Below are positions 6,005 through 35,395 of a stretch of DNA of 35,395 nucleotides, in pieces (within the stretch, counting starts at the first letter, position 1; the number at the start of each line of letters is the position of its first letter). A program made the position numbers and the translations under genes. The DNA comes from Opitutales bacterium (lineage in GTDB: Bacteria; Verrucomicrobiota; Verrucomicrobiia; Opitutales; JAJFLR01), in the NCBI GenBank assembly GCA_021772565.1, contig JAJFLR010000039.1:1-35395 (forward strand), given 5' to 3'. The notes beneath the pieces are model-generated. The model was not told where the DNA came from and searched no databases. It saw only the letters and a list, made by a program, of their open reading frames with translations.

Positions 6005-6781
6005 ATGGAAAAATATCTATATCTATCATTAATTCCAGAGTCATTAATTGCATCAATGTTAAGTCCGGAAGAATTTGGTAATTACTATGCAGTCGGGACA
6101 AAATACAGAACCAGTGGACAAGCCATATTCTTTGAAGTAAATCAAGATTTTGAATCTGATTATTTTGATCTCTCGATTATTGAAAACAAATGCGTTCCAC
6201 ACAAAAATGGAAATCCAAAAAAATCAGCCTACTTGAGTGTCTATCGAGTTTTAGAAAATATTCCGCTGTCTGCTTTAGGAAAACTTTATTTGGCAACCGG
6301 CCATGGAAAGGTAATTGGCATTGAACCGCAGACTTATAACTCTGATGAAAAAAGTGAATTACATCTCTATCAGGATATATGTCCGGTAACTCCGAGAGTA
6401 GCCAGTAAGTTAGCACCGTCGGATTTTTGTAAATTTGTCACTAATCCACAAAATCCTATATCAGTAAAAAACATCGTTTTTACTGAATTATCAATCGGAG
6501 ATTTAGCCGAAGATCCAATGTCAGCCAATATTCAGAATTTACCTTATGCAAATGTAATCCATCTGCAAGATTGTTTATCGGCAATTAAAGGTAATGATAA
6601 TAAACCTAACAAAATTGTAATTCGAATTTTACGACAAGGTATTTCCTATCGAATGATTAAAAACGGCTTTTTTGTCGGCAATAATGATGAGATGATTTAT
6701 TACCCGCTGCCTTCGCATGAGGAGCTAAATTCAAATCATTACGAATGGTGGAGGTCTGCTCAAGAGGGTTTCAATATTTAA
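6005..6781 (+). CDS. Conserved-looking protein of unknown function
   Basis: A 258-residue protein that I do not recognise. It has no signal peptide and no membrane segment and looks globular and cytoplasmic, with a mixed alpha/beta character. Notable stretches are YLSLIPESLIASMLSPEEFG at residues 4-23, the centre LATGHGKVIGIEPQ, and a run of charged and aromatic residues at the end (HYEWWRSAQEGFN). It starts 34 bp after phoU on the same strand, so it could be carried on the pst transcript, or be the first gene of the acyl-ACP cluster that begins 79 bp downstream. Its codon and base use resemble both neighbours. No function is claimed. Confidence 0.6.
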   Translation: MEKYLYLSLIPESLIASMLSPEEFGNYYAVGTKYRTSGQAIFFEVNQDFESDYFDLSIIENKCVPHKNGNPKKSAYLSVYRVLENIPLSALGKLYLATGHGKVIGIEPQTYNSDEKSELHLYQDICPVTPRVASKLAPSDFCKFVTNPQNPISVKNIVFTELSIGDLAEDPMSANIQNLPYANVIHLQDCLSAIKGNDNKPNKIVIRILRQGISYRMIKNGFFVGNNDEMIYYPLPSHEELNSNHYEWWRSAQEGFNI

Positions 6782-6860
6782 AAATTTTGCATTATAAAAT
6801 AATATTTGAGAACACGTTACTTTATCTGCAACTAAATTTTTGGTTTTTTAATATTAATAT

Positions 6861-7160
6861 ATGAAGGGGAAAATCGAGAAGCTTATTATTAACGCATTAG
6901 TTGATTATAATGAAGAACTTGAAAACCCGGCATACGGTAATCCCGATGAAAAAACCAGACTCTACAGTTCTGAAGGTGGAATGGACAGTATTGCTTTAGT
7001 TGGATTTATAGCAGATTTAGAAGAACGTTTGGCGGTAGAGTTTAATAAAGATATCATTCTGGCTGATGAAAGAGCAATGAGTCAAAAACGATCGCCATTC
7101 TTAAGTGTTCAATTACTTGCTAACTACATTGAAAATCTGTTACTGGAATCTGAAGAATGA
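6861..7160 (+). CDS. Acyl carrier protein (ACP1)
   Basis: A 99-residue acidic helical protein. The phosphopantetheine attachment motif is GGMDSIALVGF, with Ser43 as the likely carrier residue, preceding the helix DLEERL. It is longer than FabC-type ACPs (about 78 residues) because of an insertion between the Ser helix and the C-terminal helix (LADERAMSQKRSP). Its stop overlaps the SDR start by ATGA. It is the first of four ACPs in the cluster and, being next to an AMP ligase, may be the loading carrier. The partner assignment is inference. Confidence 0.85.
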   Translation: MKGKIEKLIINALVDYNEELENPAYGNPDEKTRLYSSEGGMDSIALVGFIADLEERLAVEFNKDIILADERAMSQKRSPFLSVQLLANYIENLLLESEE

Positions 7161-7858
7161 GCAATGTCATTCTAATAACAGGGACTAGAAAAGGGATAGG
7201 CAAAGAGCTAGCTCAATATTATTTAAAAAATAGCTGGAATGTAATTGGGTGCAGTAGAGGCGAAACTACTATCAGTGATAAAAGCTATCAACACTATCAA
7301 TTTGATGTATCAGATGAAAAAAGCGTAATAAAAATAGTACGTGAGGTGAGTAGGAAATTTGGTAAGATCGATGTTCTATTGAACAATGCCGGTATTGCTT
7401 CAATGAACCATTTACTGCTAACACCAATTGATAAAGCTAAAGATATTTTTAATACTAATTTTTTCGGATCTTTTTTGCTTATGCGAGAAGTCGGAAAAAT
7501 TATGACTAAAAAAAAGAATGGTAGAATAGTAAATTTCACCACTGTTGCTGTTCCACTAAACCTTGATGGCGAGGCAATTTACGCTGCAAGTAAAGCAGCT
7601 GTTGAGTCATTGACAAAAATTTCGGCAAAAGAATTAGCACCGTATGGAATAACGGTAAATGCAGTTGGACCTAGTCCCGTTAAAACTGATTTAATTAAAG
7701 TTGTACCCAAGGATAAAATTAGTGATTTAGTTTCCAAACAGGCAATAAAGAGACTGGGTGAGTTCAACGATGTAGTTAACGTTATAAATTTCTTTATTGA
7801 TAAAAATAGTAATTTCATCACCGGTCAGATAATTTACTTAGGAGGAATTAGTGGCTAA
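7157..7858 (+). CDS. Short-chain dehydrogenase/reductase, FabG-like
   Basis: A 233-residue classical SDR. The Rossmann motif is TGTRKGIG (8-15), NNAG lies at 76-79, and the catalytic pair is Tyr142-x3-Lys146 in IYAASKAAV. The residue that is normally the catalytic Ser is Thr here (FTTVAV, 127-132), which can replace it. The C-terminal ITGQIIYLGG is typical of FabG-like ketoreductases. Coupled to ACP1 upstream (ATGA overlap) and overlapping the ligase by 8 bp, it probably reduces a 3-ketoacyl-ACP to the 3-hydroxyacyl form. An alcohol or sugar substrate cannot be excluded. Confidence 0.85.
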   Translation: MSNVILITGTRKGIGKELAQYYLKNSWNVIGCSRGETTISDKSYQHYQFDVSDEKSVIKIVREVSRKFGKIDVLLNNAGIASMNHLLLTPIDKAKDIFNTNFFGSFLLMREVGKIMTKKKNGRIVNFTTVAVPLNLDGEAIYAASKAAVESLTKISAKELAPYGITVNAVGPSPVKTDLIKVVPKDKISDLVSKQAIKRLGEFNDVVNVINFFIDKNSNFITGQIIYLGGISG

Positions 7859-9221
7859 GACAAACGAGCGACTTTGGATATTTGATAAGATTCGCTCTTT
7901 CGGTGATAAAATATTTTTAGTCCACCAGGATTATCAATATAGCTTTACTGAATTCTGTGATGCGATTGATGCGGCGCAAAAAAAATTAACAGAAAACAAT
8001 GTTACCAAATCCGAAGTTGTCGGAATTTTATCCGACTATTCATTTAACTCTTTAGCCTATTTTTTTGCTCTTTTTCAGAATGGAAATATTATTTCACCGA
8101 TCACAGTAACGGTAAATGAAGAAATTGAAGATAGGCTGAACGAGGGCTTTATAAATAAGGTTCTCAGATTTAGTTCAGATGGTGTGAAAATTTCAGATCA
8201 TGAATCTGCAAAACAAACTCATAGTATTATCAATAACCTAAATGAAAAAAACCAGTCCGGGTTAATATTATTTAGTAGCGGCAGTACAGGTAAACCAAAG
8301 GCAATGGTTCACAATCTTGATAATTTGTTAAATACTTATAGAGACAAACGACCAAAATCGCTGATAATGTTAGTATTATTATTGTTTGATCATATTGGCG
8401 GGCTTAATACTCTGTTTAATGCAATCGCCACAGGATCTACCGTCGTGATTCCGGATTCAAGAGATGCTACTGAAATATGTAAGCTAATTGAAAAATACCG
8501 AGTTAATATTCTGCCGGCATCACCCACTTTTCTAAATTTAATTTTAATGAGTGAGGCAGATAAACAATTCGATTTGAGTTCACTTAGAATTATAACTTAT
8601 GGGACAGAGCCAATGTCAGAAAGTTTGTTGTCTCGAATTCAACATAAATTTTCAAAAGTAAAACTAATACAAACGTTCGGTACCAGCGAAACCGGTATAT
8701 CCCATACCACAAGTAAATCGTCGGCAAGCACACTCATTAAAATAGATGATCCAAACATTGAATATAAAATTGTTGATGACGAACTTTGGTTACGAAGTAA
8801 GACACAAATATTGGGATACTTAAATTATTCAATGGAAAAATTCACTGAAGATGGCTGGTTTGCAACCGGGGACTTTGTTGAACAAAAGACTGATGGTTAT
8901 CTCAAAATAATCGGACGCAAACAAGAAGTTATTAATGTAGGTGGACAAAAAGTTTTACCAGCTGAAGTTGAATCTGTCTTAATGGAAATACCTGAAATTG
9001 CTGATTGCTTGGTTCTGGGAGCAACAAATGCCATTACTGGTCAGGCTGTGATTGCACAGATTGTTTTATCAGAAAATGCCAATGACATAAATATTTCTAA
9101 AATTGTCAGACGTTATTGCAAAAATCATCTCGACCTTTTCAAAGTGCCGACAAAGGTTAAAGTTGTTGAAAAAATTGAATATAGTACTCGATTTAAAAAA
9201 ATCAGGAATTCGGAAAATTAA
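7851..9221 (+). CDS. AMP-dependent acyl activating enzyme (acyl-CoA or acyl-ACP ligase)
   Basis: A 456-residue ANL-superfamily adenylating enzyme. The P-loop FSSGSTGKPK lies at 141-150, the acid-binding A5 region QTFGTSETG at 274-282, DGWFATGD at 334-341, and the hinge GRKQEVINVGGQKV at 355-368. The C-terminal catalytic lysine would be within YSTRFKK (about 444-450), where the usual PRTxxGK context has changed. It is some 50-100 residues shorter than common acyl-CoA ligases, with a reduced N-terminal region. The start is GTG at 7851, set by a strong AGGAGG site at 7840-7845. Next to ACP1 it probably activates a short acid for loading on the carrier. Confidence 0.85.
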   Translation: MAKTNERLWIFDKIRSFGDKIFLVHQDYQYSFTEFCDAIDAAQKKLTENNVTKSEVVGILSDYSFNSLAYFFALFQNGNIISPITVTVNEEIEDRLNEGFINKVLRFSSDGVKISDHESAKQTHSIINNLNEKNQSGLILFSSGSTGKPKAMVHNLDNLLNTYRDKRPKSLIMLVLLLFDHIGGLNTLFNAIATGSTVVIPDSRDATEICKLIEKYRVNILPASPTFLNLILMSEADKQFDLSSLRIITYGTEPMSESLLSRIQHKFSKVKLIQTFGTSETGISHTTSKSSASTLIKIDDPNIEYKIVDDELWLRSKTQILGYLNYSMEKFTEDGWFATGDFVEQKTDGYLKIIGRKQEVINVGGQKVLPAEVESVLMEIPEIADCLVLGATNAITGQAVIAQIVLSENANDINISKIVRRYCKNHLDLFKVPTKVKVVEKIEYSTRFKKIRNSEN

Positions 9222-9236
9222 TTTATACTTTTTATA

Positions 9237-10310
9237 ATGCCACAAGCCAAAACAATACAAAGTAAAATTTCAGCCATTCACACAACTGTCGGATCGATTC
9301 TAAAAAAAATTGATGATGATATTGAAAATTTTGGTGGTAACGTTAGTCAAATAGAAACTATTAAAAAGACGATAGGCTTGAATGAAAGAAGAGTCGTCGA
9401 TCAAAATACGACTGCTGCTGATTTATGTGAAAATTCAGCTAGAACTTTAATTGAAGAATTAAAACTAAACCCAGACGAAATCGATGCATTGATATGTGTC
9501 ACACAAACCCCCGATCATTTCCAACCTTGTAACGCAGCAATTCTACATGGCCGTTTGAAACTCAGTAAATCTTGTGCGGCATTCGACGTAACCCTTGGTT
9601 GTTCCGGGTATGTATATGGATTGTACCTATCATCGATTATGATAGAAAGTGGTGGCTGTAAAAAAATATTATTATTAGCAGGTGATACCATGAGCCGCTG
9701 CGTGAACCCGAAAGATCGTTCAACAGCATCATTATTCGGAGATGCCGGTAGTGCAACGTTGGTAGAATATTCTGAAACAGAAAATTCGATATGGTTTGAT
9801 CTGCATACCAACGGGCAGGGTAGTGATTATATTATAATTCCAGCAGGCGGATTTCGTAACCCTGCTAGTGATAAAACTAAAATTTCCACAATTGATTGTG
9901 ATGGCAATACGAGATCACCGGAAAATCTTTTCATGAATGGAGCTGAGATCTTTAATTTTTCTATAAAAGAAGAACCGCAAGCAATTCGTAAAATCCTTGA
10001 ACTGAGTGGAAAAAAAATCGATGAGATTGATTACATATTTTTTCACCAAGCCAATAAATATATAATCAGTAACATTGCCAGACGCTTAAAATTACCAATT
10101 GAAAGAGCCCCCTACCAAACTGTGGAAAAATATGGCAATCAAAGCAGCGCATCAATACCGGCAACTATATGTGAGACTTATAACCAAGAGTCCAAAAATA
10201 ATTTGAACACCGTGATTTTATCCGGCTTTGGGGTTGGGTTATCCTGGGCAACAAGTTTAATGGAACTTAATCAATTGAAATTTTGTTCTTTAGAACTTTA
10301 CAAAGTCTAA
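9237..10310 (+). CDS. Beta-ketoacyl-ACP synthase III family protein (KAS III-1)
   Basis: A 357-residue thiolase-fold condensing enzyme with the complete KAS III triad: Cys122 in LGCSGYVYG, His270 in FFHQANKYI and Asn301 in YGNQSSASIP. It is longer than housekeeping FabH (about 320) because of an insertion around residues 205-240 with SDKTKI and LFMNGAEIFNFSI, which is shared with the second KAS III at 14513-15589; the two are clear paralogues. Such long KAS III proteins occur in cell-surface polysaccharide and specialised lipid loci. It probably condenses an acyl starter with malonyl-ACP. It is unlikely to be the cell's only FabH. Confidence 0.88.
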   Translation: MPQAKTIQSKISAIHTTVGSILKKIDDDIENFGGNVSQIETIKKTIGLNERRVVDQNTTAADLCENSARTLIEELKLNPDEIDALICVTQTPDHFQPCNAAILHGRLKLSKSCAAFDVTLGCSGYVYGLYLSSIMIESGGCKKILLLAGDTMSRCVNPKDRSTASLFGDAGSATLVEYSETENSIWFDLHTNGQGSDYIIIPAGGFRNPASDKTKISTIDCDGNTRSPENLFMNGAEIFNFSIKEEPQAIRKILELSGKKIDEIDYIFFHQANKYIISNIARRLKLPIERAPYQTVEKYGNQSSASIPATICETYNQESKNNLNTVILSGFGVGLSWATSLMELNQLKFCSLELYKV

Positions 10311-10351
10311 ACTGTTTAATTAAACCAACATAAAAATTTATTCGACACAAA

Positions 10352-10588
10352 ATGAACATTCAAGAATTCATCGACTCAATTGAAAACGAAATCCCCACTA
10401 TTAAATCGGGTTCTCTTCAGGCTAGCTCAATATTTCGTGAAGTTGCTGGCTGGGATTCGCTAGCAAGTTTAATGTTTTTATCTATGTTAGATACCGATTT
10501 TCATGTTGATGTGTCACCGCATGAATTGAAAGATTGTTTAACCATACAAGATCTATTCAATTTTATTGAATCGAAACGAACGAACTAA
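10352..10588 (+). CDS. Acyl carrier protein (ACP2)
   Basis: A 78-residue ACP of normal length. The attachment motif is VAGWDSLASLMFL with Ser36, followed by a helix and a C-terminal helix IQDLFNFIESK. It lies between KAS III-1 and the NeuD-like acyltransferase with short gaps, so it may carry the finished acyl chain to that transferase. Confidence 0.85.
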   Translation: MNIQEFIDSIENEIPTIKSGSLQASSIFREVAGWDSLASLMFLSMLDTDFHVDVSPHELKDCLTIQDLFNFIESKRTN

Positions 10589-10598
10589 AAAATAATTT

Positions 10599-11237
10599 AT
10601 GCGAAAACAACTTGTAATAATTGGTGCCGGTGGTTTTGGACGTGAAGTATATGCTTGGGCTCAGCAAACATTTGATTTTAATGAAGAGTGGGAGTTCAAA
10701 GGATTTTTAGATGACAATTCAAGCATATTAGATAATTTTAATTATAATGCTAAAATTATTTCTAATGTAAATGAATACATGCCGAAGGCAGAAGATCGAT
10801 TTTTATGTGCTATTGGCAATCCAACAATCAAAAAAAGACTCACAAAAATAATATTAGATAAAGGTGGTATTTTCACAAATTTGATACACCCAACAGTTAT
10901 CGTTGGAAATAATGTTTCCATGGGAAATGGAATAATTTTATGTCCTAGAGTAATTCTAACATGTGATATAATAGTTGGTAATTTCGTTTCATTAAATTTT
11001 GATACATCAATAGGTCATGATGTAACCGTGGGCAATTATTGCCAAGTCAGCTCATTTTGCGATGTGACAGGAGGAGTTACTTTGGGTGAAGGTGTATTCA
11101 TGGGTAGTCATGCATCTATTCTGCCTAAAGGTGTTGTAGGAGATTTTGCAAAGGTGGGTGCAGGTAGCATTGTTATTTCCAAAGTAAAAGAATACTCAAC
11201 TGTATTTGGAGTACCTGCGAAACCGATAACTATTTAA
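10599..11237 (+). CDS. NeuD/PglD-like sugar O- or N-acyltransferase (1)
   Basis: A 212-residue protein of the sialic acid O-acetyltransferase NeuD family. The N-terminal Rossmann-like half opens with VIIGAGGFGREV (6-17), followed by a left-handed beta-helix of hexapeptide repeats from about residue 95 to the end (VGNNVSMGNG, VGNFVSLN, IGHDVTVGN, LGEGVFMGS). His140 in IGHD is the likely catalytic base. Family members transfer acetyl or longer acyl groups to amino sugars or hydroxyls. Here, downstream of an ACP, the donor could be acyl-ACP. It ends one base before the stop of the opposing FkbH-like gene. A second copy stands at 15883-16548. Confidence 0.85.
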   Translation: MRKQLVIIGAGGFGREVYAWAQQTFDFNEEWEFKGFLDDNSSILDNFNYNAKIISNVNEYMPKAEDRFLCAIGNPTIKKRLTKIILDKGGIFTNLIHPTVIVGNNVSMGNGIILCPRVILTCDIIVGNFVSLNFDTSIGHDVTVGNYCQVSSFCDVTGGVTLGEGVFMGSHASILPKGVVGDFAKVGAGSIVISKVKEYSTVFGVPAKPITI

Positions 11238-11238
11238 A

Positions 11239-13446
11239 CTATATACCTTTATCTTCAATGTGGGATTTAGAGCGATTAATATATTGAATATTCAAGGTGT
11301 GAACAGATACAGATTCAGAATTTATTTCATTATTATCATCTAATATAAACCCTTTTGATGGATAAAAGTCAGCTACCAGATTATTTTTAGCTGATTCTAT
11401 ATATATTCCTCTTACCTCTGTGGCTCCACTAATAATTGCTGCATCAATGATTGTATTGAGCATAAAGTCTTCCATTGTTCTACCTATTACGCGACAACTC
11501 ATTAATAGAGTATCGACTTCCCAACAAGTATCAATGATTTTGCAAATGACAATACCAATTAAGCCGTTATCGCCGAATTGATCACTAAGCCTAAACCACT
11601 GTGTCCACCATTTTTTTGATTCAGTTAACTTTCTAACCTCATCAATATTTCTTCTTCGGGTTGTCAAATTGAATTGGTTTGTTTTGTTAATTAGTTGAGT
11701 AACACGTTCCATAACTAATTCGTTAAATTTGTCGTGTGACGACTCCATTTTTAGACTATCAAGATATTCTTCCAAAGAAGTCGAAGAATCCAAATGATGT
11801 TGTCTTTCAATATTCGATTTATAACTTTTATTTCTATTTATATCATCATTTGAGAGTGATATAGATTCAAAAAATTTGCCGTGATGTAATCCATGGATAT
11901 ATTCTGAAGGGGTTTCTGGAAGTTGAACAACTTTTACCATTGGAAGTTTACTTCTAACTAGTTTGCACTCAAAAGGGTTATCATCGACAAATACTAAACT
12001 ATCGATTCCCACATTAATTTCTTTGGCAATTTCTATTAAATTTGTCGCCTTATCTAACCAGTTAGCTTTAAATACTATAAAATCATTTAACTTCAAAACC
12101 ATACCATCATGTTTTTCGAATGGTAATTTTGCATCAGCTTCATTATTTTTTGAGCATACAGCTAAAATAATACCTCGTTGTTTTAATTCTAAAATATACT
12201 CTTGAAATGCTGAAAATGCTTCACCAGTAGGCGACGGGGGGCCAATTTTAATACCACCTAATCCATCTTCTCCAATAACGCCACCCCACAGTGTATTATC
12301 CAAGTCCAATACAAGAACCTTGCTGGAAGCTCCCAGGACAGATCTTATTAAGGACATATAACTTTCACACAAATCTGATAATGCGTTGGTATTAGGATAC
12401 TGTTGCGCTCTAAGCCAATTGGATAATTCATCCCATTGCAGACGTCCAAAATTTGCTGCTATGTTATCAAAATCAACAATATGTACACTCTGCGTTTTCT
12501 GTAGTAATAATTCTTCGTTTATCCTCCTAATTGTTCGAGTTCGACCAGATATATTTGAATGCCCGATGTAGCCCAATGAATCAGTTGCAGAAAGATCAAA
12601 GTTATGCTGCAATATCTGACAATTTAATCGCCCATTCAATAAATCCCAATATGACTTCCATTCTTTAACTGTCTCAGTGACAATTCGGTCTGAATCTTCT
12701 GTTAATATTGAAAGTTTCAGATCACGCCAATGACAATATAGTATAATAAATTCAGGTTGAAATTTATATAAACCAGACTCGGGGTTCATTATGTCCTGCT
12801 TTAAATTACCATACGGAGACTCATAAATTTCCAATAAAATATTATTAGAAAATGCCTTTGCATGCAAGATGGGCAATATTAAACTTGTAGTCGAAGTCGA
12901 CAATATGGCTAGTTTAATTTTTGTAATTTCTAAAGGAGGGCTTTTCTTAACGAGTTTTTTTAAGACTTTAGCAATTTGCGTTAAAGTGTAGTAATCGTTA
13001 GTAGCAGTAGATGAACTTTTAAGGGCCAAATAAGCTAACTCAAAATAATCTAATTCTCTATACAATCTCGCCAGCGCCAGATTAGCATAAGCATTACATT
13101 CTTTTATTGAGTCAGCAGTTTCGTGCCATACTTTTATTGCCTCAACATTTTGTTTTTCCAAATGGAGTGCTTCAGCAATAATCACCTTTCCAAGAGATGT
13201 TTTCTGCCAATCAGAATTATGCTCTAAACGTTTTTGAAAAATACTGGTATCATTTTTTGGAAAACGCCTAAGATTGTCACGCAACAAGTAATGATCCTTC
13301 TTGTTATATTCATCACTATTATCAATTACGTAATCGTAAAATTCTAATAGTTCATCAGGTTCTATTGCAGAAATTAACGGTATGATGTTACTCGCAGATA
13401 ACTTCTCAATATTTTCGAGTGAAAATTTATGTTTAGATAAACTCAT
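11239..13446 (-). CDS. FkbH-like HAD-superfamily protein with N-terminal helical extension
   Basis: A 735-residue multidomain protein. Residues 1-170 are helical with TPR-like features (AEALHLEKQNVEAIKVW, ANLALARLYRELDYFELAYL). Residues 175-370 match the SGNH-like N-terminal region of FkbH proteins. The HAD-IIIC domain has DLDNTLWGG (381-389) with the nucleophile Asp381 and VFVDDNPFE (486-494). A GNAT-like C-terminal domain begins with the conserved VTQLINKTNQFNLTTRR (582-598). FkbH enzymes load 3-carbon units such as glyceryl from 1,3-bisphosphoglycerate onto ACPs. Just upstream in the same direction lies ACP3. It is therefore likely to provide a glyceryl- or lactyl-type acyl-ACP; the helical extension is of unknown use. 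Confidence 0.85.
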   Translation of the reverse strand: MSLSKHKFSLENIEKLSASNIIPLISAIEPDELLEFYDYVIDNSDEYNKKDHYLLRDNLRRFPKNDTSIFQKRLEHNSDWQKTSLGKVIIAEALHLEKQNVEAIKVWHETADSIKECNAYANLALARLYRELDYFELAYLALKSSSTATNDYYTLTQIAKVLKKLVKKSPPLEITKIKLAILSTSTTSLILPILHAKAFSNNILLEIYESPYGNLKQDIMNPESGLYKFQPEFIILYCHWRDLKLSILTEDSDRIVTETVKEWKSYWDLLNGRLNCQILQHNFDLSATDSLGYIGHSNISGRTRTIRRINEELLLQKTQSVHIVDFDNIAANFGRLQWDELSNWLRAQQYPNTNALSDLCESYMSLIRSVLGASSKVLVLDLDNTLWGGVIGEDGLGGIKIGPPSPTGEAFSAFQEYILELKQRGIILAVCSKNNEADAKLPFEKHDGMVLKLNDFIVFKANWLDKATNLIEIAKEINVGIDSLVFVDDNPFECKLVRSKLPMVKVVQLPETPSEYIHGLHHGKFFESISLSNDDINRNKSYKSNIERQHHLDSSTSLEEYLDSLKMESSHDKFNELVMERVTQLINKTNQFNLTTRRRNIDEVRKLTESKKWWTQWFRLSDQFGDNGLIGIVICKIIDTCWEVDTLLMSCRVIGRTMEDFMLNTIIDAAIISGATEVRGIYIESAKNNLVADFYPSKGFILDDNNEINSESVSVHTLNIQYINRSKSHIEDKGI

Positions 13447-13472
13447 CGATCTAGACGGCCCAGTGTTTTGGG

Positions 13473-13694
13473 TTAAAATAATCGCAAAATGTCAGCTACA
13501 CTACTGATTTCAGCGACTTCATCTGTAGACAATCTTTTGCCAAATGATTCTTCAATAGCGAGGACAATTTGAACTGTTGCAACTGAATCCCAATCCTCAT
13601 GATCTTGCATAGAAAATGATTCATCAACATCTAAATCAGGCTCATCTAACACATCTCTAAAAATTCGTTGTATAGTGGATAGTTTATCATTCAT
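13473..13694 (-). CDS. Acyl carrier protein (ACP3), probable partner of the FkbH-like protein
   Basis: A 73-residue ACP with the carrier motif DHEDWDSVATVQI, Ser37, then the acidic helix LAIEESF. It is 26 bp upstream of the FkbH-like gene in the same operon, the usual arrangement of an FkbH with its own ACP. The acidic spacing and short length are normal for discrete ACPs. Confidence 0.85.
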   Translation of the reverse strand: MNDKLSTIQRIFRDVLDEPDLDVDESFSMQDHEDWDSVATVQIVLAIEESFGKRLSTDEVAEISSVADILRLF

Positions 13695-13776
13695 AAACAG
13701 TTATTCAGAATTTTAACCATGAAACTGGCAATATAAATTTATATTTTTTTCAACTTTCGAGGCAATGTTAGAGAAA

Positions 13777-14526
13777 TTATAAACTTAAACCACCATCTAC
13801 GATAATGTTTGTTCCTGTAATCCACGAAGCATCATCTGAGAGTAAAAAGCTTGCAACTGAACTCACATTTTCTGGTTTTCCAATTCCAAGCGGGTGAGCA
13901 TTAATAATAGCATCTCTTTGTTCATCAGGCATTTTTCCCATAAATGCTTCGCTTAGAGGAGTCTCAATAACTCCTGGACTAACCACATTGATTCTAATAT
14001 TTCGAGAAGCGAGTTCTGCCGCTAATGTACGTGCAGCTGAAATCATACCTCCTTTGGCAGCACTATATGCAACTGCTCCAGGCTCACCTTTAATTGCAGC
14101 AACTGATGACAACCAGACTATTGAGCTAGTTTGCTTATTGAGTTTACGACTAAAAACCAGTGATTTAGTAAATAAAATACTTGAAAATAAATGGGATCGT
14201 AACATTTCATCAATATCGATTTCTCGAGTAACCTTTAACGGTTTAAGCCAGTGAATACCTGCGCAATGCACTGCACCGTCTATCATATTAATATCATCAG
14301 GCAGCTCTTTAAATAATGATTTTAAATTTGCTTCATTGGTTATATCACATTGGCGATAACAATGCCCCTCACCCTTTAATTGATCTAACGTAACTTTTAA
14401 CCTTTCATCATTTCGTGCTACAAGTATTACACGAGCGCCCTCTTCAGATAATCGAATTGCCGTTGCCTGACCAATTCCTGAAGAAGCTCCAGTGACTATA
14501 TATATTTTATTATTAAAACGATTCAT
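13777..14526 (-). CDS. Short-chain dehydrogenase/reductase, FabG-like
   Basis: A 249-residue classical SDR with the cofactor motif TGASSGIG (12-19), HCAG in place of NNAG (87-90), Ser140/Ser141 in WLSSVAA, and Tyr154-x3-Lys158 in AYSAAKGGM. It ends with the family-typical ITGTNIIVDGGLSL. The chosen ATG lies inside the end of KAS III-2 (14-bp overlap), which points to translational coupling; a longer open frame up to 14565 exists but adds only an unlikely His/Met-rich leader. It is presumed to reduce the product of KAS III-2. Confidence 0.87.
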   Translation of the reverse strand: MNRFNNKIYIVTGASSGIGQATAIRLSEEGARVILVARNDERLKVTLDQLKGEGHCYRQCDITNEANLKSLFKELPDDINMIDGAVHCAGIHWLKPLKVTREIDIDEMLRSHLFSSILFTKSLVFSRKLNKQTSSIVWLSSVAAIKGEPGAVAYSAAKGGMISAARTLAAELASRNIRINVVSPGVIETPLSEAFMGKMPDEQRDAIINAHPLGIGKPENVSSVASFLLSDDASWITGTNIIVDGGLSL

Positions 14527-15589
14527 TTTCACTTTCATTATATTCAATGGATGCATCGGATGCATTTAGTATATCCTTTGGCCATTTAATTATTATTGTC
14601 CCCCAAGAGAGTCCTGCACCAAATGCACAAATTAAAGTTTGACTGTCAGGCGCAATTTTTCCGGATCTCCAAGCTTCTGCCAATAGACAGGGCAATGATG
14701 CACCACTTAGATTGCCGACAGTTTCTGAAAAATAAAATTGTTTTTCAACAGGAACATTTATTTTTCGATAAATTTGGTCTAGCATCATTTTATTTGCCTG
14801 ATGCAATAAAACTAGGTCAATTTCATCAATGGTTATTTTCCATTTATCGAGTGCAGATTGTATCGCTTCTGGCACTTTGTAGATTGAAAAATGGAAAACA
14901 GCAGGTCCGTTCATATATAAATGTTCATCAGTACGTATACAGTTACTATCATCTTTTATCTCAATTTTTGTTTTATCACTTTTGGGAATTCGAGCCCCTG
15001 AAGCTGGTACTATCAAATGCTTATACCCCGAACCGTCCACACCCATATCAACGAAGCAAATCCCTGTATCATCATTTGTTGCTTCAATCAAAGTAGCTAC
15101 TGCACCGTCTCCATGCAGTGGAATTAGTCCTCTATCTTGAGGATGGATAATACTTGTGAGGGCTTCGGCATTTAATAATAAAACTTTTTTTGCTCTGCCT
15201 GAAGCAATATAGCCTTCAGCGGTAGCCAAACCAAATATATAAGTTGAACAACCCTGATTAAGATCGAATGCACCACAATGTTCTGGTAGCTTAAGCCTAT
15301 GATGTAAAATACAGGATGTTGCGGGAATTTGATGATCGCCGGTTTGTGAACAATAAATAATTAAATCAATTTCTTCTGCTTTGATGTGATAACTTTCAAG
15401 TAATCTTTTTGCAGCGACAAAAGCTAAGTCAGATGCTGTTATTCCGTCAGTTACAATTCGACGTTCTTTAACCCCCGACATTCTTGTAATCGATTTTATC
15501 GCTTTAGCAGTAAATCGATCTTCTAATTCCTGATTCGTTAATCGAGTTGTTGGCAAGCAATAATGCATTGCCTTAATTTGGGCTTGCAT
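14513..15589 (-). CDS. Beta-ketoacyl-ACP synthase III family protein (KAS III-2)
   Basis: A 358-residue paralogue of the KAS III at 9237-10310, with a full triad: Cys114 in NQGCSTYIFG, His263 in LLHQANKMM and Asn293 in VGNLSGASLP. Shared details beyond the general family are DRxxxxLxGD, SDKTKI, LYMNGPAVFHFSI and the end GxGLSWGT. It is coupled to the following SDR by a 14-bp overlap and follows ACP4 by 28 bp. It probably extends a different starter from its paralogue, since the flanking carriers and transferases differ. Confidence 0.88.
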   Translation of the reverse strand: MQAQIKAMHYCLPTTRLTNQELEDRFTAKAIKSITRMSGVKERRIVTDGITASDLAFVAAKRLLESYHIKAEEIDLIIYCSQTGDHQIPATSCILHHRLKLPEHCGAFDLNQGCSTYIFGLATAEGYIASGRAKKVLLLNAEALTSIIHPQDRGLIPLHGDGAVATLIEATNDDTGICFVDMGVDGSGYKHLIVPASGARIPKSDKTKIEIKDDSNCIRTDEHLYMNGPAVFHFSIYKVPEAIQSALDKWKITIDEIDLVLLHQANKMMLDQIYRKINVPVEKQFYFSETVGNLSGASLPCLLAEAWRSGKIAPDSQTLICAFGAGLSWGTIIIKWPKDILNASDASIEYNESENESF

Positions 15590-15617
15590 GTCCTATAATT
15601 ATTGAGAAGTTATCAAA

Positions 15618-15860
15618 CTATTCTTCAATTTCTAAACCTTGTTTGTTAGCTATTTCAATGACGTCATCTAGCTTAGTCAACTTAGGCAACATTTCGTGAC
15701 TTACTTTTATGCCCAATTCATCATCTAATGCCACCATTAAGGCAAGCATTACTACTGAATCAAAAATCTCTAATTCTTGAAATAACGAATTGCTGGCTAT
15801 CTCTTCATCTTCTGTTTCAAATACCTCAGCAATACATTCAATAACGTTTTGTTTTTTCAT
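15618..15860 (-). CDS. Acyl carrier protein (ACP4)
   Basis: An 80-residue ACP starting MKKQNVIECI. The carrier motif is LEIFDSVVMLAL with Ser35, followed by the acidic helix ALDDELG. The frame is open up to 15896 (12 more residues), but that would overlap the upstream acyltransferase, and the shorter start gives normal ACP length. It lies between the second NeuD-like protein and KAS III-2. Confidence 0.85.
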   Translation of the reverse strand: MKKQNVIECIAEVFETEDEEIASNSLFQELEIFDSVVMLALMVALDDELGIKVSHEMLPKLTKLDDVIEIANKQGLEIEE

Positions 15861-15882
15861 TTCTAGTAATTTTAAAATTTTC

Positions 15883-16548
15883 TTAATTTTTAACAATCAC
15901 CCTTGCCGGATTTCCAAGTGCTGTACATCTGGCAGGTAAGTTTCTAACTAAAAATGAGCTTGCTCCTAAAACACTGTATTCTTCCATAACAATGTTTTGT
16001 TTAGTAACTGAATTAGATGCGACAAAGGCTCCTTCTTTTAGTATTGTATTTCCTGACAATCTGCTACCCGGACAAATATGAGCATAATCTGCTAGAGTAG
16101 AATCATGTCCAATTGTGCAATGAAGATTTATTATAACATGACTCCCAATTTTTGCATTTGGTGACAAAATAGTTCCCGCACCTACATATGTTCCATCACC
16201 AACTTCTACTTCTCTGGCTCGAATAACGCTTGGATCAATTAAAGTTTCAGGTTGCCACCCCAGTTTTATAGCACGTGCAACAACTTCTTTTCTAATTAAA
16301 TTATTGCCAATTGAACAAAAAAAGTAAACATTGCCATTAATTTTCAAATCTTCGGGTACTCCTAAGTTTTTATAACTATAAATTTCTTTTCCCTGTATAC
16401 TTGTATTGTCATCGCAATAACCAATCATCTCATACTCTGCAGGTTTACCTTCAGACAAATTTTTCTGATTGATATTTTCAGCAACCCAGAACACTTCTTG
16501 TCCAAAGCCCCCTGCCCCTATGACAATTAATTTTTTAAGCGCTTTCAT
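15883..16548 (-). CDS. NeuD/PglD-like sugar O- or N-acyltransferase (2)
   Basis: A 221-residue member of the same family as the protein at 10599-11237. The N-terminal LIVIGAGGFGQEVF (7-20) is the nucleotide- or sugar-binding half. Hexapeptide repeats run from about residue 110 (VEVGDGTYVGAGTILSPNAKIGSHV), with likely catalytic His148 in TIGHDSTL, and end LPARCTALGNPARVI. It is the first gene of the minus-strand half of the cluster. The ATG at 16548 gives a family-like start; an upstream in-frame ATG at 16578 adds only LLFYYVIEY. Confidence 0.85.
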   Translation of the reverse strand: MKALKKLIVIGAGGFGQEVFWVAENINQKNLSEGKPAEYEMIGYCDDNTSIQGKEIYSYKNLGVPEDLKINGNVYFFCSIGNNLIRKEVVARAIKLGWQPETLIDPSVIRAREVEVGDGTYVGAGTILSPNAKIGSHVIINLHCTIGHDSTLADYAHICPGSRLSGNTILKEGAFVASNSVTKQNIVMEEYSVLGASSFLVRNLPARCTALGNPARVIVKN

Positions 16549-16764
16549 ATATTCAATAACATAGTAAAATAATAACATGTATAAAAAATTGTAAATCCGT
16601 CATTGTCAATTGAGTAATCAAATAAAGAACGACAAGATTATTCTACAGATATAATACGTTATTTTAATAATTCTAATCATTATTTTCTGATTGATTAAAA
16701 ACAGCTAGTAAGTAGAAAACAATTTTAGAAAAATTATATAAATTATTCGTTGAATTTTAATAGT

Positions 16765-18201
16765 ATGATATATCGGATTTTTACAATTGAAGATCAAAAT
16801 GCATTTGCTCAAATATCAGGTGACTATAATCCCATGCATATTGATGAGATTGCGGCACGCAGATATATGTTTGGTCAACCGGTAGTGCACGGAATACATT
16901 CATTACTCTGGGCACTTGATAAATTGTATGATGGTTTAAAAAATTCTGCTAAAATAAGATCGATTAAAGCGAAATTTTTGAGACCTATTGTAATGGGACA
17001 ACATGTTGAGTATAAACTAAAATCTCATAAAGATAATCGATTAGTTATAGAACTAATTAGTAACAAATCCACCATGACAAGAATTCAAATTGAATTTGTT
17101 GCTAAAGATTTTGATGAGACTCATGAAATAAAACAAATAACAAATATACATAATCACCCTGACCAGCATACTCCTACAATTTTAGAAGAAGATGAAATAA
17201 TTAATAATTCCGGAGAAATTGAATTAACAATCGATAGCACTGTTGTTTATAAATTATTTCCATCTTTGAAAAATAATATATCACCGAATCAAATTGCTAC
17301 AATCTTGGGAACAACCCGTATAGTAGGTGCCAAATGCCCTGGTTTACATTCTATATACTCAGAGTTAGATATATCAACTGAAACTAATAATAATAAATCT
17401 AACTTAAGTTATGATGTTGTCGATTATGATAAACGGTTTGGCCTGGTTACCCTTCAGGTTAATTCATCGATATTTAAAGGTAAAATTAAAGCATTCAGGC
17501 GCCCACCCCCACAAGAACAAGTTAGTTATATAAATTTAAAATCAAAACTGACAAATAATGCATACAGTAATCAAAAAGCTTTAATTATTGGGGGATCCAG
17601 AGGACTGGGAGAAGTGACAACAAAACTTTTATGTGCTGGAGGTGCCAGTGTGAAATTCACCTATCATCAAGGAGCAGGTGACTCAAAGGAAATTGTGAGA
17701 GATATTTCTTCAAACGGAGGAGTCGTTGATTGTGCGCAAATTGATATTTTGAATAAGAAAGTAGATTTATCTGAAATTTTGGCCAAAGATTGGACACCGA
17801 CTCATTTATATTACTTTGCAACTCCTTTTATTTTCTCAGGGCAAAAGAGTAAATTTTCAGTTGAATTATTCAATAAGTTTTCTGCTTACTACGTGATTGG
17901 ATTTAGTCGTATCGTCAGCAAATTAATCCCATTGGGCTTAACAGATATTTTCTATCCTTCAACTGTAGCAATTGATGAATTACCGATCAACATGGGTGAA
18001 TATACCGCAGCCAAAACGGCTAGTGAAACTCTTTGTAATTTTTTAGAAAAAGCAAATCGTGATATTAAAATTTATAAACCTCGCTTTCCCAGATTGGCCA
18101 CTGATCAAACAGCTAGTTTTATGCCGGTTGTAAACAAGGATCCTGTGCCAGTTTTAATAGATGAATTACAAAAATTTCGGAATTATTCTTTATCTAAATA
18201 A
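16765..18201 (+). CDS. MaoC-like hydratase fused to a short-chain dehydrogenase
   Basis: A 478-residue two-function protein. Residues 10-45 carry the MaoC/(R)-hydratase motif FAQISGDYNPMHID with Asp20 and His25, the pair that catalyses hydration of enoyl thioesters, and then VVHGIH. Residues about 145-245 look like a second, degenerate hotdog domain (ILGTTRIVGAKCPGLHSIYS). Residues 270-478 are an SDR with GGSRGLGE (276-283), Ser399 and Tyr413-x3-Lys417. The ATG at 16765 is preferred over a TTG at 16750. It is divergent from the minus-strand operon, sharing a 216-bp intergenic region. It probably performs dehydration and reduction on ACP- or CoA-bound intermediates of the cluster. Confidence 0.82.
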   Translation: MIYRIFTIEDQNAFAQISGDYNPMHIDEIAARRYMFGQPVVHGIHSLLWALDKLYDGLKNSAKIRSIKAKFLRPIVMGQHVEYKLKSHKDNRLVIELISNKSTMTRIQIEFVAKDFDETHEIKQITNIHNHPDQHTPTILEEDEIINNSGEIELTIDSTVVYKLFPSLKNNISPNQIATILGTTRIVGAKCPGLHSIYSELDISTETNNNKSNLSYDVVDYDKRFGLVTLQVNSSIFKGKIKAFRRPPPQEQVSYINLKSKLTNNAYSNQKALIIGGSRGLGEVTTKLLCAGGASVKFTYHQGAGDSKEIVRDISSNGGVVDCAQIDILNKKVDLSEILAKDWTPTHLYYFATPFIFSGQKSKFSVELFNKFSAYYVIGFSRIVSKLIPLGLTDIFYPSTVAIDELPINMGEYTAAKTASETLCNFLEKANRDIKIYKPRFPRLATDQTASFMPVVNKDPVPVLIDELQKFRNYSLSK

Positions 18202-23191: not shown

Positions 23192-24868
23192 ATGAGTGAA
23201 ATGGACAAATTGACAAAAGAACAAAGAAAAAAAAATATGCAGGCTGTAAAAAGTAAAGGCTCATTAATTGAAACTTTACTTGCAAAAAAACTTTGGGAAA
23301 AAGGTTATAGATACAGAAAAAATAACAAAACGGTTTATGGCAAACCTGATTTAACATTCAAAAAATACAAAATTGCTGTTTTCGTTGACGGTGATTTTTG
23401 GCACGGAAGGAATTGGGAAACAAAAAAATTTGACCACAAAAGCAATCAAGAATTTTGGCACACAAAAATTGAAAAAAATATAAGAAGAGATAAAAAAGTT
23501 AATACTCATTTAGCAAAAGATGGTTGGAATGTTATCAGGTTTTGGGGTAGTGAAATAGAAAATGAATTGATTTCTTGTGTTCAAATAATTGAACAAAAAA
23601 TAAATGATTCAAAAAGAAAAATGGAATTTAAAGAATTCTATAAAAATGATCTAAAAATAAAAACTGCAGGCACCACTGAGCATGGGGAAGCTGCATTTAC
23701 TCATTATTTAAAAAATCACCAAAATGGTGTTTCAAAGTTCTTTAAAAAAGAAGCACTTAAGCACGTAAAATGCTCAATTAATTATAAATTTACAGAGGAA
23801 GATATTACAATGAAAGTTGCAGAGGAAGCCTTGCAATATATGCTTTTTGATTTCAAAAAAAATGTTCCATTTCCTGACCCGATTAATCCAAAATTCAAAT
23901 TTATTGACTTATTTGCAGGAATTGGGGGATTTAGAATTGCATTTCAAGGTTTAAATGGTAAATGTGTTTACACCAGTGAATTGGATGAACAAGCAAAAAA
24001 GACTTACCAAGCCAATTTTGGTGAAGTTCCATTTGGAGATATAACTAAGGAAAATACTAAGAAATTTATTCCGAATGACTTTGACATTCTATGTGCAGGA
24101 TTTCCATGCCAAGCTTTTTCTATTGCAGGTAAAAGAGGCGGGTTTGAAGATATAAGAGGTACATTATTTTTTGAAGTTGCAGAAATTATCAAAAGAAAAA
24201 AGCCAAAGGCTATTTTTCTTGAAAACGTAAAAGGATTATTCAATCACGATAAAGGAAAAACGATACAAACGATTTTGAGTGTATTAAGAAATGATCTCGA
24301 TTATTTTGTACCTGACCCTAAAATAATAAACGCTAAACATTATGGAGTCCCTCAAAATAGAGAACGAGTTTTTATAGTAGGTTTTAGAAAGAATTTAGGG
24401 ATTACAGAATTTGAGTATCCTAAATCTATCAAAAGAAATGTAAGATTTAAAGATGTTAAAGAGAAGGAGGTTGTATCAGTAAAATATTATTTATCGAATA
24501 GATATTTAAACACTCTCATAAAACACAAAAAGCGTCATGAAAACAAAGGTAATGGATTTGGATACGAAATAATTTCAGACAACAATATCGCAAATGCTGT
24601 TGTCTGTGGTGGCATGGGTAGAGAAAGAAATTTAGTGTATGATGATCGATTAGAAGATTTTACACCAATAACTCATATACAGGGGAAAGTAAATCGAAAA
24701 GGTATTAGAAAAATGACCCCGAGAGAATGGGCAAGACTTCAAGGCTTTCCTGACAAATTTTTAATACCTGTCGCTGATGCATCAGCTTACAAACAATTTG
24801 GAAATTCAGTTGCTATTCCTGCTATTAAAGCAACTGCAAATGAAATTATTAAAAGGATATTAAAATAA
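23192..24868 (+). CDS. Vsr-like endonuclease fused to HpaII-type DNA cytosine-5 methyltransferase
   Basis: A 558-residue fusion. Residues 1-140 match very-short-patch-repair endonucleases: RKKNMQAVKSKGSLIE, GKPDL with the catalytic Asp at about 53, FVDGDFWHG (64-72) and KIEKNIRRD (92-100). Residues 145-235 are a helical linker without known motifs. Residues 236-558 are an m5C methyltransferase: motif I DLFAGIGGF (239-247), GFPCQAFS with the catalytic Cys306, ENVKG (344-348), QNRERV (388-393), a variable target-recognition region and GNSVA near the end. The methyltransferase closely resembles M.HpaII as I remember it, so CCGG is the likely target. An ATG at 23621 could give a separate methyltransferase. 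The restriction gene follows by one base. Confidence 0.85.
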   Translation: MSEMDKLTKEQRKKNMQAVKSKGSLIETLLAKKLWEKGYRYRKNNKTVYGKPDLTFKKYKIAVFVDGDFWHGRNWETKKFDHKSNQEFWHTKIEKNIRRDKKVNTHLAKDGWNVIRFWGSEIENELISCVQIIEQKINDSKRKMEFKEFYKNDLKIKTAGTTEHGEAAFTHYLKNHQNGVSKFFKKEALKHVKCSINYKFTEEDITMKVAEEALQYMLFDFKKNVPFPDPINPKFKFIDLFAGIGGFRIAFQGLNGKCVYTSELDEQAKKTYQANFGEVPFGDITKENTKKFIPNDFDILCAGFPCQAFSIAGKRGGFEDIRGTLFFEVAEIIKRKKPKAIFLENVKGLFNHDKGKTIQTILSVLRNDLDYFVPDPKIINAKHYGVPQNRERVFIVGFRKNLGITEFEYPKSIKRNVRFKDVKEKEVVSVKYYLSNRYLNTLIKHKKRHENKGNGFGYEIISDNNIANAVVCGGMGRERNLVYDDRLEDFTPITHIQGKVNRKGIRKMTPREWARLQGFPDKFLIPVADASAYKQFGNSVAIPAIKATANEIIKRILK

Positions 24869-24869: not shown

Positions 24870-25949
24870 GTGATAACTGGAAATAAAGGCGAGTGGAGTG
24901 AAATCTATACACTATTTAAATTAATTGCAGACAAAAAATTATATGCTGGTGATAGTGATCTGAATAAAATTGAAAATTTAATTTTCCCTATCATAAAAAT
25001 ACTTCGAGCCGAATCCGACGGAACTTATGAATATTTTTATCATAATAATTTAGTAATTATAACAGGTAGTGAAGAAAAATTCAAAATACCTATAATCCAA
25101 TTTCAAGAGCAGGCATCAACTTTACTAACTGCCTTAAAAACATCAACGAATACTACTTTTTCATTACCTCAAATAGAATCTTTTTTAAATTCTTTCAATT
25201 GTCATTCACTCAAAGCAAGATCGTCTGTTAAAAGTGATATCCGTATAGTAATTCACGATCAGAGAACTGGGACTAATCCTGAATTAGGATTCAGTATAAA
25301 ATCACAGCTTGGTAGTGCATCCACTCTATTAAATGCGGGTAAAACAACAAATTTTATTTTTAATATTGAAAACACAACTTTCAAAGATATTGAAATTGAA
25401 GAAATAAACTCGATTGGTGGTCGTAGTAAAATAAAGGATCGGATTGAAAAAATAATTGAAAAATCCGGTAAACTAACATTTACTAAAACTGAAAGTTCAG
25501 TATTTGGTAACAACCTAGTCATAATAGATAGCTTGCTGCCTAATATTCTTTCAAAAATTATTTATCGTTTTTTTTGTTCTAAACTTTCTAATGTAAAAGA
25601 TTTGGTTACTGAAATAACTGAATCAAATCCACTCGAGTATGATTCAGAAACAAATCATCCATTTTATACATACAAAATTAAAAGGTTTTTAGCTGATATA
25701 GCCTTGGGGATGATGCCTTCAAAGGTTTGGACTGGCGAATTTGATGCAACAGGTGGTTATTTAGTAGTGAAAGAAGATGGCGATATTTTATGTTATCATA
25801 TCTACAACAAAAATGAGTTTGAGGATTATTTATTCAACAACACAAAACTTGAAACAGCAAGCAGCTCAAAACATCATTTTGGAAAGATTTACAATGAAAA
25901 CGGTAAGACGTTTTTTAAGTTAAACTTACAAATAAGATTTATAAAATGA
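24870..25949 (+). CDS. HpaII-family type II restriction endonuclease
   Basis: A 359-residue protein whose start, MITGNKGEWSEIYTLFKLI, is the hallmark of HpaII-family restriction enzymes, and whose length agrees with HpaII. It has a GTG start one base after the methyltransferase stop. The family cuts CCGG; residues 120-160 (IRIVIHDQRTGTNPELGFSI) contain conserved acidic and Lys residues near the likely active site. Expression after the methyltransferase on one transcript allows protection of host DNA first. The system as a whole looks complete and intact. Confidence 0.85.
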   Translation: MITGNKGEWSEIYTLFKLIADKKLYAGDSDLNKIENLIFPIIKILRAESDGTYEYFYHNNLVIITGSEEKFKIPIIQFQEQASTLLTALKTSTNTTFSLPQIESFLNSFNCHSLKARSSVKSDIRIVIHDQRTGTNPELGFSIKSQLGSASTLLNAGKTTNFIFNIENTTFKDIEIEEINSIGGRSKIKDRIEKIIEKSGKLTFTKTESSVFGNNLVIIDSLLPNILSKIIYRFFCSKLSNVKDLVTEITESNPLEYDSETNHPFYTYKIKRFLADIALGMMPSKVWTGEFDATGGYLVVKEDGDILCYHIYNKNEFEDYLFNNTKLETASSSKHHFGKIYNENGKTFFKLNLQIRFIK

Positions 25950-33262: not shown

Positions 33263-34375
33263 CTAAAACTTATAACCAAAATTCAAAAATAAGCGCTCTT
33301 GATTTTTAATGATTCCTTGTGATACTACGTTATCATAATCTATTTCCCAATTGAGATTCAGACTCAATGACTTTGAAATCCGTGTTTTCAATTTAGCTGA
33401 AAGATCTGCAGTTAAAAAATTTTTTGATTGTGGATCATATGAAAAATCAAATTCTTCGTGAAACGATATTCTTTTGCTGATTTTGTAGTGAAAATCTTGA
33501 AAAAGTGTAGCCAAATAATCCCATCTGTTACTTATACCGGGCTTCTCCTGGAATTTTAAAGTGATTGATGGAGTTATTGCAGCCCTCATCTTTTCACTTT
33601 TAAAAATACGCCAACCGAGACCTAGACTTTGTCGGAATTCATTATCGATGTTTTTTACTAAATCTTTTTTATAGCGTGAATTAGATTCTAAAAAAATATT
33701 ACTGTCTAAACTAAACCGACCCTTGAATGAGGATTTATAACTGTCATTACTTTTACTTCGATTGCCTTTAACATCAATCTGTTTGCCATAATTATATCCC
33801 AACTTAAACTTATATTCCCTTTCAGGTTTTTTAATTTTACTCTCAAATTTAATAGAAATATCTTCCTTGTCTGTTTGATTATTCTGAAATTTAAAGCCAA
33901 CACTGATTTTAGATTTCCAATTTTTAAACGGCCTAACCCTGTCAACTGTTTTGAAAAATGCATTATTCTTCCAATTAATTTTATCAGCTAATTCTTTTGA
34001 CGGAATTTCCGATGCTGGATTTTCAATCTGTTGCTTCGAATTATTTTCACTTTTGTTGTCAGGTTTTAATTCAGTTATTTGAACTGCATTTTTTACTTTT
34101 GATTTTTTAGACTTCGCAACAATAACTATAGCATCATCCTCTTTAACTTTAACTTCACCGATTAAGTCAGCTTCAAAAATTATTTTTCCCTCGACCACTT
34201 TGATAAATTTACCGCTTAACTTATCTCCATTATTAAATCGTAGTTGATCTGCATGCAACTTCGGACAATTTGTACAGAGTAATATCAGTAGAAATAATAT
34301 TCCAGAAATCGCCTTAAACTTTGTCAGATAGTAATCTGTTGAACTGAAGCTCTGTTTTGCCAAGTAAAAATCCAT
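33263..34375 (-). CDS. DUF481-like outer-membrane protein
   Basis: A 370-residue exported protein. A basic start and hydrophobic core (residues 23-40, ISGILFLLILL) form the signal peptide, cut near LHA-DQ (42). Residues 43-90 carry the small strand-rich domain LRFNNGDKLSGKFIKVVEGKIIFEADLIGEVKVKEDD that often precedes DUF481 barrels. A low-complexity linker (100-130) follows, then alternating strands from about 150 to the C-terminal Phe (NFGYKF), as in outer-membrane beta-barrels. It converges with the P-type ATPase gene. The function of DUF481/YdiY proteins is not known. Confidence 0.75.
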   Translation of the reverse strand: MDFYLAKQSFSSTDYYLTKFKAISGILFLLILLCTNCPKLHADQLRFNNGDKLSGKFIKVVEGKIIFEADLIGEVKVKEDDAIVIVAKSKKSKVKNAVQITELKPDNKSENNSKQQIENPASEIPSKELADKINWKNNAFFKTVDRVRPFKNWKSKISVGFKFQNNQTDKEDISIKFESKIKKPEREYKFKLGYNYGKQIDVKGNRSKSNDSYKSSFKGRFSLDSNIFLESNSRYKKDLVKNIDNEFRQSLGLGWRIFKSEKMRAAITPSITLKFQEKPGISNRWDYLATLFQDFHYKISKRISFHEEFDFSYDPQSKNFLTADLSAKLKTRISKSLSLNLNWEIDYDNVVSQGIIKNQERLFLNFGYKF

Positions 34376-34510
34376 TATTTTGGGGCAGAGTAATTCAGTT
34401 TTATATTTGTTTCAAATTTTTGTTTCAAAAAATAAAACATAAAATAGACATTTTGATTAATTTCGAATTAAGATGCTATTGAAAATACAAACTCCAACCA
34501 GCACAAACAC

Positions 34511-34601
34511 GGAGAGGTGACAGAGTGGCCGAATGTGTTCGACTCGAAATCGAATGTGCCCCACAAGGGCACCGGGGGTTCAAATCCCTCCCTCACCGCC
34601 A
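34511..34601 (+). tRNA. tRNA-Ser (anticodon CGA)
   Basis: The anticodon stem TTCGA/TCGAA encloses CTCGAAA, giving CGA, which reads UCG codons. The long variable arm (GTGCCC/GGGCAC) is that of a class II serine tRNA, and CCA is encoded at the 3' end. The T-stem (GGGGG with CCCTC) has a G-T pair and the acceptor stem (GGAGAGG with CCTCACC) has an A-A mismatch at pair 3-70. The 5' and 3' parts do not match each other well, and the base composition of the window changes here; see findings. Confidence 0.85.
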
Positions 34602-34711
34602 TTTCCCCCCATAAGGGGGGAAAGAGGCCCCTTCGGGGCCTCGCCGCCAGAGGCGGCAGGCGGATTCCCCTGGTCGCACCAGAGGTGCGACGGCGCCGCC
34701 CCTACGGGGCG
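34602..34711. repeat. Array of five GC-rich triloop/tetraloop hairpins
   Basis: Consecutive perfect hairpins stand at 34602-34623 (TTTCCCCCC, loop ATAA), 34624-34642 (GAGGCCCC, loop TTC), 34643-34657 (GCCGCC, loop AGA), 34673-34691 (GTCGCACC, loop AGA) and 34697-34711 (CGCCCC, loop TAC). The stem sequences differ but size and loop are alike. The first could be a terminator-like end to the tRNA transcript. The open reading frames seen through this part are by-products of the high GC content. Confidence 0.6.
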
Positions 34712-34802: not shown

Positions 34803-34892
34803 GGAGAGGTGTCTGAGTGGCTGAAGGAGCACGCTTGGAAAGCGTGTGTGTGGGTAACTGCACCGAGGGTTCGAATCCCTCTCTCTCCGCCA
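34803..34892 (+). tRNA. tRNA-Ser (anticodon GGA)
   Basis: CACGC/GCGTG encloses TTGGAAA, anticodon GGA, for UCC and UCU codons. It has a class II long variable arm, a T-stem GAGGG/CCCTC with loop TTCGAAT, the acceptor stem GGAGAGG/TCTCTCC (one G-T), discriminator G and encoded CCA. All stems pair well, unlike the preceding tRNA-Ser. Confidence 0.93.
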
Positions 34893-34946: not shown

Positions 34947-35073
34947 GATGGGCCCGGCAGTGGGCCCGGTCCCACGCGATGGATCGTGGTCGAACCGGGT
35001 CAGGCCGGGAACGGAGCAGCCCTAAGGTCAACGATTCAAGCGCGAGGTGCCCGGGTCCTCTGGCGGGCCCATC
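34947..35073 (+). ncRNA. ffs: Bacterial signal recognition particle RNA (4.5S type)
   Basis: The conserved domain IV core GGTCAGGCCGGGAACGGAGC with AGCAGCCCTAAGG around it is the Ffh-binding hairpin. The ends GATGGGCCCG (34947-34956) and CGGGCCCATC (35064-35073) pair over 10 bp, giving an RNA of about 127 nt that closes as one long hairpin. CCCTTTT after the 3' end suggests termination. The order tRNA-Ser then ffs is common in bacteria. Confidence 0.9.
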
Positions 35074-35142
35074 CCTTTTGACCCAGGGGAGTCACGGAGG
35101 AGGCGGTCGCGCTGGAGTCGGTCACACCGTGACGCGTGAGCT

Positions 35143-35258
35143 GTCCGCCTGAGAGGCGGGGGTTACACCCAGGGACGTTGTGATCTTGTCACCTTGTGGC
35201 ATGACGCACGGGAGATTGGGATTCGTCCGCCTGAGAGGCGGGGGTCACACCTAGGGAC
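35143..35258. repeat. Two 34-bp GC-rich repeats with internal hairpins
   Basis: Units at 35143-35176 and 35225-35258 differ at two positions. Each has GTCC at one end and GGAC at the other and an inner hairpin CCGCCT-GAG-AGGCGG; the first also has GGGT-TAC-ACCC. A more distant third unit begins at 35343 (GTCCGCCGGGGAGGCC). The remaining 3' stretch to 35395 is GC-rich without a supportable gene. Confidence 0.55.
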
Positions 35259-35395
35259 ATGGGGGACATACGGTGCCAGGCACTGTTCAGTACCTGGCCC
35301 AGTCTGTGCGGGGGTGGCAAGAGGCGTCGGGGGAGGGGGGCGGTCCGCCGGGGAGGCCGGGGTCGGACTCGGACGGGAGGATCGCGTGGGGCGGG

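Follow-up and report, generated by a model that had tools for sequence, protein, structure and literature searches.

How does an AT-rich contig come to turn GC-rich inside a serine tRNA gene, 0.8 kb before it ends? The contig in question (C57) is the window analysed here, meaning the whole stretch of 35,395 bases, and is one of the 124 contigs of a 3.57-Mb genome bin with a listed completeness of 95.3% and a listed contamination of 0.37%. The first-pass annotation of this DNA had described a composition break at the tRNA gene, had regarded the gene as parts of two different serine tRNAs joined in the T-loop, and had named two possible causes, integrase recombination and the joining of unrelated contigs by an assembler over conserved tRNA sequence. 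The window bears a foreign tail, a hybrid tRNA gene and, within that gene, a switch interval between the two parts (Table 1). On the evidence presented below, the end of this contig is almost certainly an assembly chimera formed over sequence shared by two serine tRNA genes, that is, an artefact rather than biology.

Table 1. Features around the junction, with window coordinates and the evidence for each
Feature	Coordinates	Strand	Evidence
Host DNA, AT-rich, ~34% GC	1-34510		ORFs, composition, tetranucleotides
DUF481 protein gene, last before the tRNA	33263-34375	-	Pfam/ORFs
tRNA-Ser(CGA), hybrid	34511-34601	+	ARAGORN, Rfam
Host 5' part of tRNA-Ser(CGA): GGAGAGG acceptor 5' strand, D arm, anticodon arm, 5' side of variable arm	34511-34566	+	Diagnostic sites
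Switch interval common to the tRNA-Ser(CGA) of both lineages, GGGCACCGGGGGTTCAAATCCCTCCCTC, 28 nt	34567-34594	+	Log-odds scan, longest common substrings
Planctomycete 3' end of tRNA-Ser(CGA): acceptor ...CCTCACC, G, CCA	34595-34601	+	3' suffix identity
tRNA-Ser(GGA), planctomycete	34803-34892	+	ARAGORN; 96-97% identity to tRNA-Ser(GGA) of G092-G095
Small SRP RNA gene (ffs), planctomycete, second copy of the bin	34963-35060	+	Rfam, identity, tree
Planctomycete repeat-rich intergenic DNA upstream of dnaX, to contig end	35061-35395		Match to G079:C589

Composition on the two sides of the tRNA gene

In the 800 bp upstream of tRNA-Ser(CGA) the GC content is 0.299, as compared with 0.671 downstream, and in the spacer that follows the gene it reaches 65-78% in 40-bp steps. 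Background values for the genome were drawn from the window, ten further stretches and the RNA-gene loci. Segments of 800 bp had a mean GC content of 0.343 (sd 0.033; n = 1,135 sampled segments) with a maximum of 0.439, and the flanks of the other tRNA and ffs genes (60 flanks of 800 bp each) had a mean of 0.338 and a maximum of 0.404. Given these two maxima, the break described in the first-pass annotation is real and does not represent a trait of the RNA genes of this genome; similar GC-rich RNA regions elsewhere, which that annotation had named, together with even coverage by spanning long reads, as refuting its reading, occurred in none of the 60 flanks. The tetranucleotide comparison of the two sides that it had suggested gave a concordant result, in that positions 33700-34500 showed a correlation of 0.93 with the rest of the genome and of -0.46 with planctomycete loci. 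Among the host's genes are one for a Porin_5 porin and one whose product has a PEP-CTERM-like C-terminus, a content that may point to Verrucomicrobiota.

A planctomycete RNA locus at the contig end

The source of the GC-rich part was approached through its gene order. A pattern consisting of a tRNA-Ser 3' end located about 100 nt upstream of the SRP core was searched in approximately 85,000 species genomes and yielded five loci, all with the order tRNA-Arg(ACG), tRNA-Ser(CGA), tRNA-Ser(GGA), ffs; three of the five bear the title Planctomycetota. An actinobacterial source was also considered and was dropped when this synteny pattern returned Planctomycetota. Within 154 genomes from the order of one of the five loci, matches were obtained at 81% over tRNA-Ser(GGA)-ffs, 97% over tRNA-Ser(GGA) and 85% over the last 208 bp of the window. 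The last of these matches lies in a planctomycete contig (G079:C589), where it is followed by an AlkD-like gene and then by dnaX, so that the window breaks off between the ffs and dnaX genes of a planctomycete.

Among 20 planctomycete loci studied in detail, tRNA-Ser(CGA) and tRNA-Ser(GGA) were adjacent in 19 and ffs came next in 18, with dnaX downstream on the same strand in every one of these 18. The parts missing from the two exceptions (L102 and L105) fall where their contigs end, and every examined planctomycete locus with a spanning contig keeps the order tRNA-Ser(CGA)-tRNA-Ser(GGA)-ffs-dnaX. The longer arrangement tRNA-Arg(ACG)-tRNA-Ser(CGA)-tRNA-Ser(GGA)-ffs-dnaX is likewise conserved, with a gap of about 0.7-1.1 kb between the arginine and serine tRNA genes (L056-L060, L094-L108). 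Like this planctomycete locus, the tail of the window retains the 3' end of tRNA-Ser(CGA) followed by tRNA-Ser(GGA) and ffs, with order and orientation unchanged, and its end matches the sequence upstream of dnaX in G079; unlike it, the 5' part of tRNA-Ser(CGA) and the genes upstream are gone, with host DNA in their place.

The ffs gene also served as a test of this origin. The window copy shares identities of 0.72-0.90 with 18 planctomycete ffs genes and of 0.45-0.61 with 26 from the host order, whereas the other ffs of the bin, on the AT-rich contig C107, shares 63-88% with the host order and 46-58% with planctomycetes. The tree separates the two copies to opposite sides and groups the window copy with planctomycetes. 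Matches to ffs were obtained in 32 of the 35 host-order genomes searched (the bin included), with two in the bin and exactly one in each of the others. The C107 copy represents the host's own ffs, and the host's own tRNA-Ser(GGA), tRNA-Ser(GCT) and tRNA-Ser(TGA) are found on the AT-rich contigs C27, C39 and C46. Judged by its sequence, everything from the 3' strand of the acceptor stem to position 35395 can be assigned to Planctomycetota.

The donor species itself is absent from the genomes searched, in which the best matches were a tRNA at 97%, an ffs gene at 90% and, to the tail, a sequence at 85%. A search of G079, which best matches the last 208 bp, for the matching tRNA-Ser-ffs part did not find it, and the contig of G079 breaks in the repeats of the tail described below. 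No match was obtained with an exact 48-nt SRP pattern in genome contigs or with a 33-nt pattern in viral contigs; plasmid and phage collections yielded nothing but ordinary tRNA-Ser matches, which rules out a plasmid or phage source. Positions 35061-35395 contain a dispersed planctomycete intergenic repeat, CATACGGTGCCAGGCACTGTTCAGTACCTGG, with units GTCCGCCTGAGAGGCGGGGGTNACACC, which is also present in G079:C589 and at about 20 other places in G079. This repeat has 24 matches in G079, many of them within 100 nt of contig starts, and hence probably breaks assemblies.

The hybrid tRNA-Ser(CGA)

The tRNA-Ser(CGA) of the window was aligned with 21 distinct host-order and 21 planctomycete sequences. 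At nine strongly diagnostic sites (34520, 34536, 34538, 34540, 34542, 34543, 34550, 34552 and 34554) it carries the host-type rather than the planctomycete base, and planctomycete-leaning bases begin at 34567, with the strongest at 34595. Its last 33 nt are identical to those of the planctomycete loci L102-L104 and its last 26 nt to those of L056, L059 and L099-L101. The 3' suffix shared with any of the 21 distinct host-order sequences is at most 6 nt long, since all of them end in the acceptor sequence CTCTCC or TTCTCC and the window has CTCACC.

Read directly from the sequence, A34513 opposes A34595 (position 3.70), which bears out the A-A acceptor mismatch of the first-pass annotation. This mismatch arises because the partner of the planctomycete CCTCACC is GGTGAGG, whereas its partner in the window is GGAGAGG. 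The GGGGG of the T-stem, which had likewise been taken as a sign of mismatched halves, loses that meaning: opposite CCCTC it forms a complete stem that includes a single G.U pair. This combination is native to tRNA-Ser(CGA) in both lineages, being the commonest form in the host order (16/21) and also common among the planctomycete sequences (9/21). The T-stem is therefore uninformative on the join. Only the acceptor A.A mismatch and the CCTCACC sequence can be regarded as diagnostic of the hybrid, and the join can be placed only within 34567-34594. The proposal that two serine tRNAs had been joined is thus upheld by the alignment, but its placement in the T-loop gives way to these wider bounds.

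According to the longest common substrings, the stretch shared with planctomycete tRNAs ends at 34594 and measures 26-28 nt, a length judged from the tRNA-Ser(CGA) of relatives rather than from the host's own intact gene. Native cross-order pairs of tRNA-Ser(CGA) have up to 34 nt in common, and 5% of the pairs share at least 21 nt. The motif TTCAAAT is present in two host-order tRNA-Ser(CGA) sequences, and for the host's own gene the shared length is an estimate.

Origin and implications of the junction

Three findings bear on how the two parts came together. The two sides originate from different organisms, as indicated by GC content and tetranucleotides and, on the right side, by ffs, the tRNAs and a synteny typical of Planctomycetota; the join falls in shared sequence that, by comparison with relatives, is long enough for assembly k-mers; and single-copy genes are doubled in the bin, which holds two ffs genes and a further tRNA-Ser(GGA) on C27. 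An AT-rich path of the assembly graph, or a read, would have entered the host tRNA-Ser(CGA), and the assembler would then have swapped, over the shared stretch within the switch interval, to the tRNA-Ser(CGA) path of a co-occurring planctomycete. This path would run for 0.8 kb through tRNA-Ser(GGA) and ffs and stop in the dispersed repeat at 35395. A de Bruijn assembler with k in the low twenties is able to cross such a stretch between organisms. We infer that the switch took place in the assembler rather than in the cell and that the bin is a metagenome assembly.

Genuine horizontal transfer, in which an integrative element or a recombination event placed planctomycete DNA in the host tRNA-Ser(CGA), appears very improbable, even though tRNA genes are common integration sites and the break lies within one. 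Among the Pfam-tested ORFs near the tRNA, of which DUF481, a P-type ATPase and DUF2851 are the nearest, an integrase is absent, as is an att duplication in the window, where the only other match to the 3' end of the tRNA is tRNA-Ser(GGA), with 3 mismatches. An element might extend past the contig end, yet the foreign DNA opens with planctomycete housekeeping genes: what arrived is a housekeeping locus of chromosomal RNA genes arranged as is customary in planctomycetes, and the foreign part contains no protein-coding genes beyond short mechanical ORFs that overlap the RNA genes. Moreover, integrases that target tRNA genes restore an intact tRNA, whereas the A34513.A34595 mismatch leaves this one damaged.

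That a real recombination inserted the planctomycete tRNA-Ser-ffs-dnaX region into the host tRNA-Ser(CGA), so that the cell would carry a hybrid tRNA as well as a foreign SRP RNA beside its own, is scarcely credible. The same negligible probability attaches to a natural island of GC-rich structural-RNA genes and spacers belonging to the AT-rich host. RNA genes in AT-rich genomes are GC-richer than the background, but the flanks of this genome's other tRNA and ffs genes stay close to its mean, the spacer behind the tRNA is itself GC-rich, and the host's own ffs and tRNA-Ser(GGA) lie on other contigs. Of the two causes named in the first-pass annotation, an assembler join over conserved tRNA sequence is thus strongly supported by the foreign housekeeping tail, the duplicate ffs and the shared stretch, while integrase recombination finds no backing in either the neighbouring genes or the cargo.

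An assembly chimera of this type carries a lesson for quality control, as it represents a cross-phylum join inside a bin of very low estimated contamination, which is accounted for by the foreign DNA consisting of RNA genes only. Conserved 3' ends of tRNA genes (T-arm plus acceptor) that are common to phyla over at least 26 nt are plausible bridges for short-k assemblers. Studies of horizontal transfer or of the evolution of tRNAs should leave out both the hybrid tRNA and the second ffs. Contigs that join different species are a known error of metagenome assemblies, of the kind that GUNC is designed to recognise (PMC8201837). The present contig resembles them in combining two lineages on one contig through a short conserved join near the contig end, and differs in that its foreign part comprises only RNA genes and intergenic DNA, and is therefore invisible to checks based on protein markers.

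Two further loci were observed on the host side of the window. A fusion protein of 558 aa, encoded at 23192-24868, combines a Vsr mismatch endonuclease (residues 4-76) with a C5-cytosine methylase (residues 235-554) and is directly followed by a gene for an HpaII-type restriction enzyme (PF09561, E 1e-142) at 24870-25949; by their predicted domains, the two genes would constitute a compact restriction-modification-repair unit. A cluster at 6005-18201 encodes two KAS III-like proteins, acyl-carrier-protein-like ORFs, an FkbH-like protein, SDRs, an AMP-ligase and two NeuD-like acyltransferases. It is laid out, according to the ORF translations, in two opposed halves, and looks like a duplicated locus for acyl or surface-polysaccharide biosynthesis.
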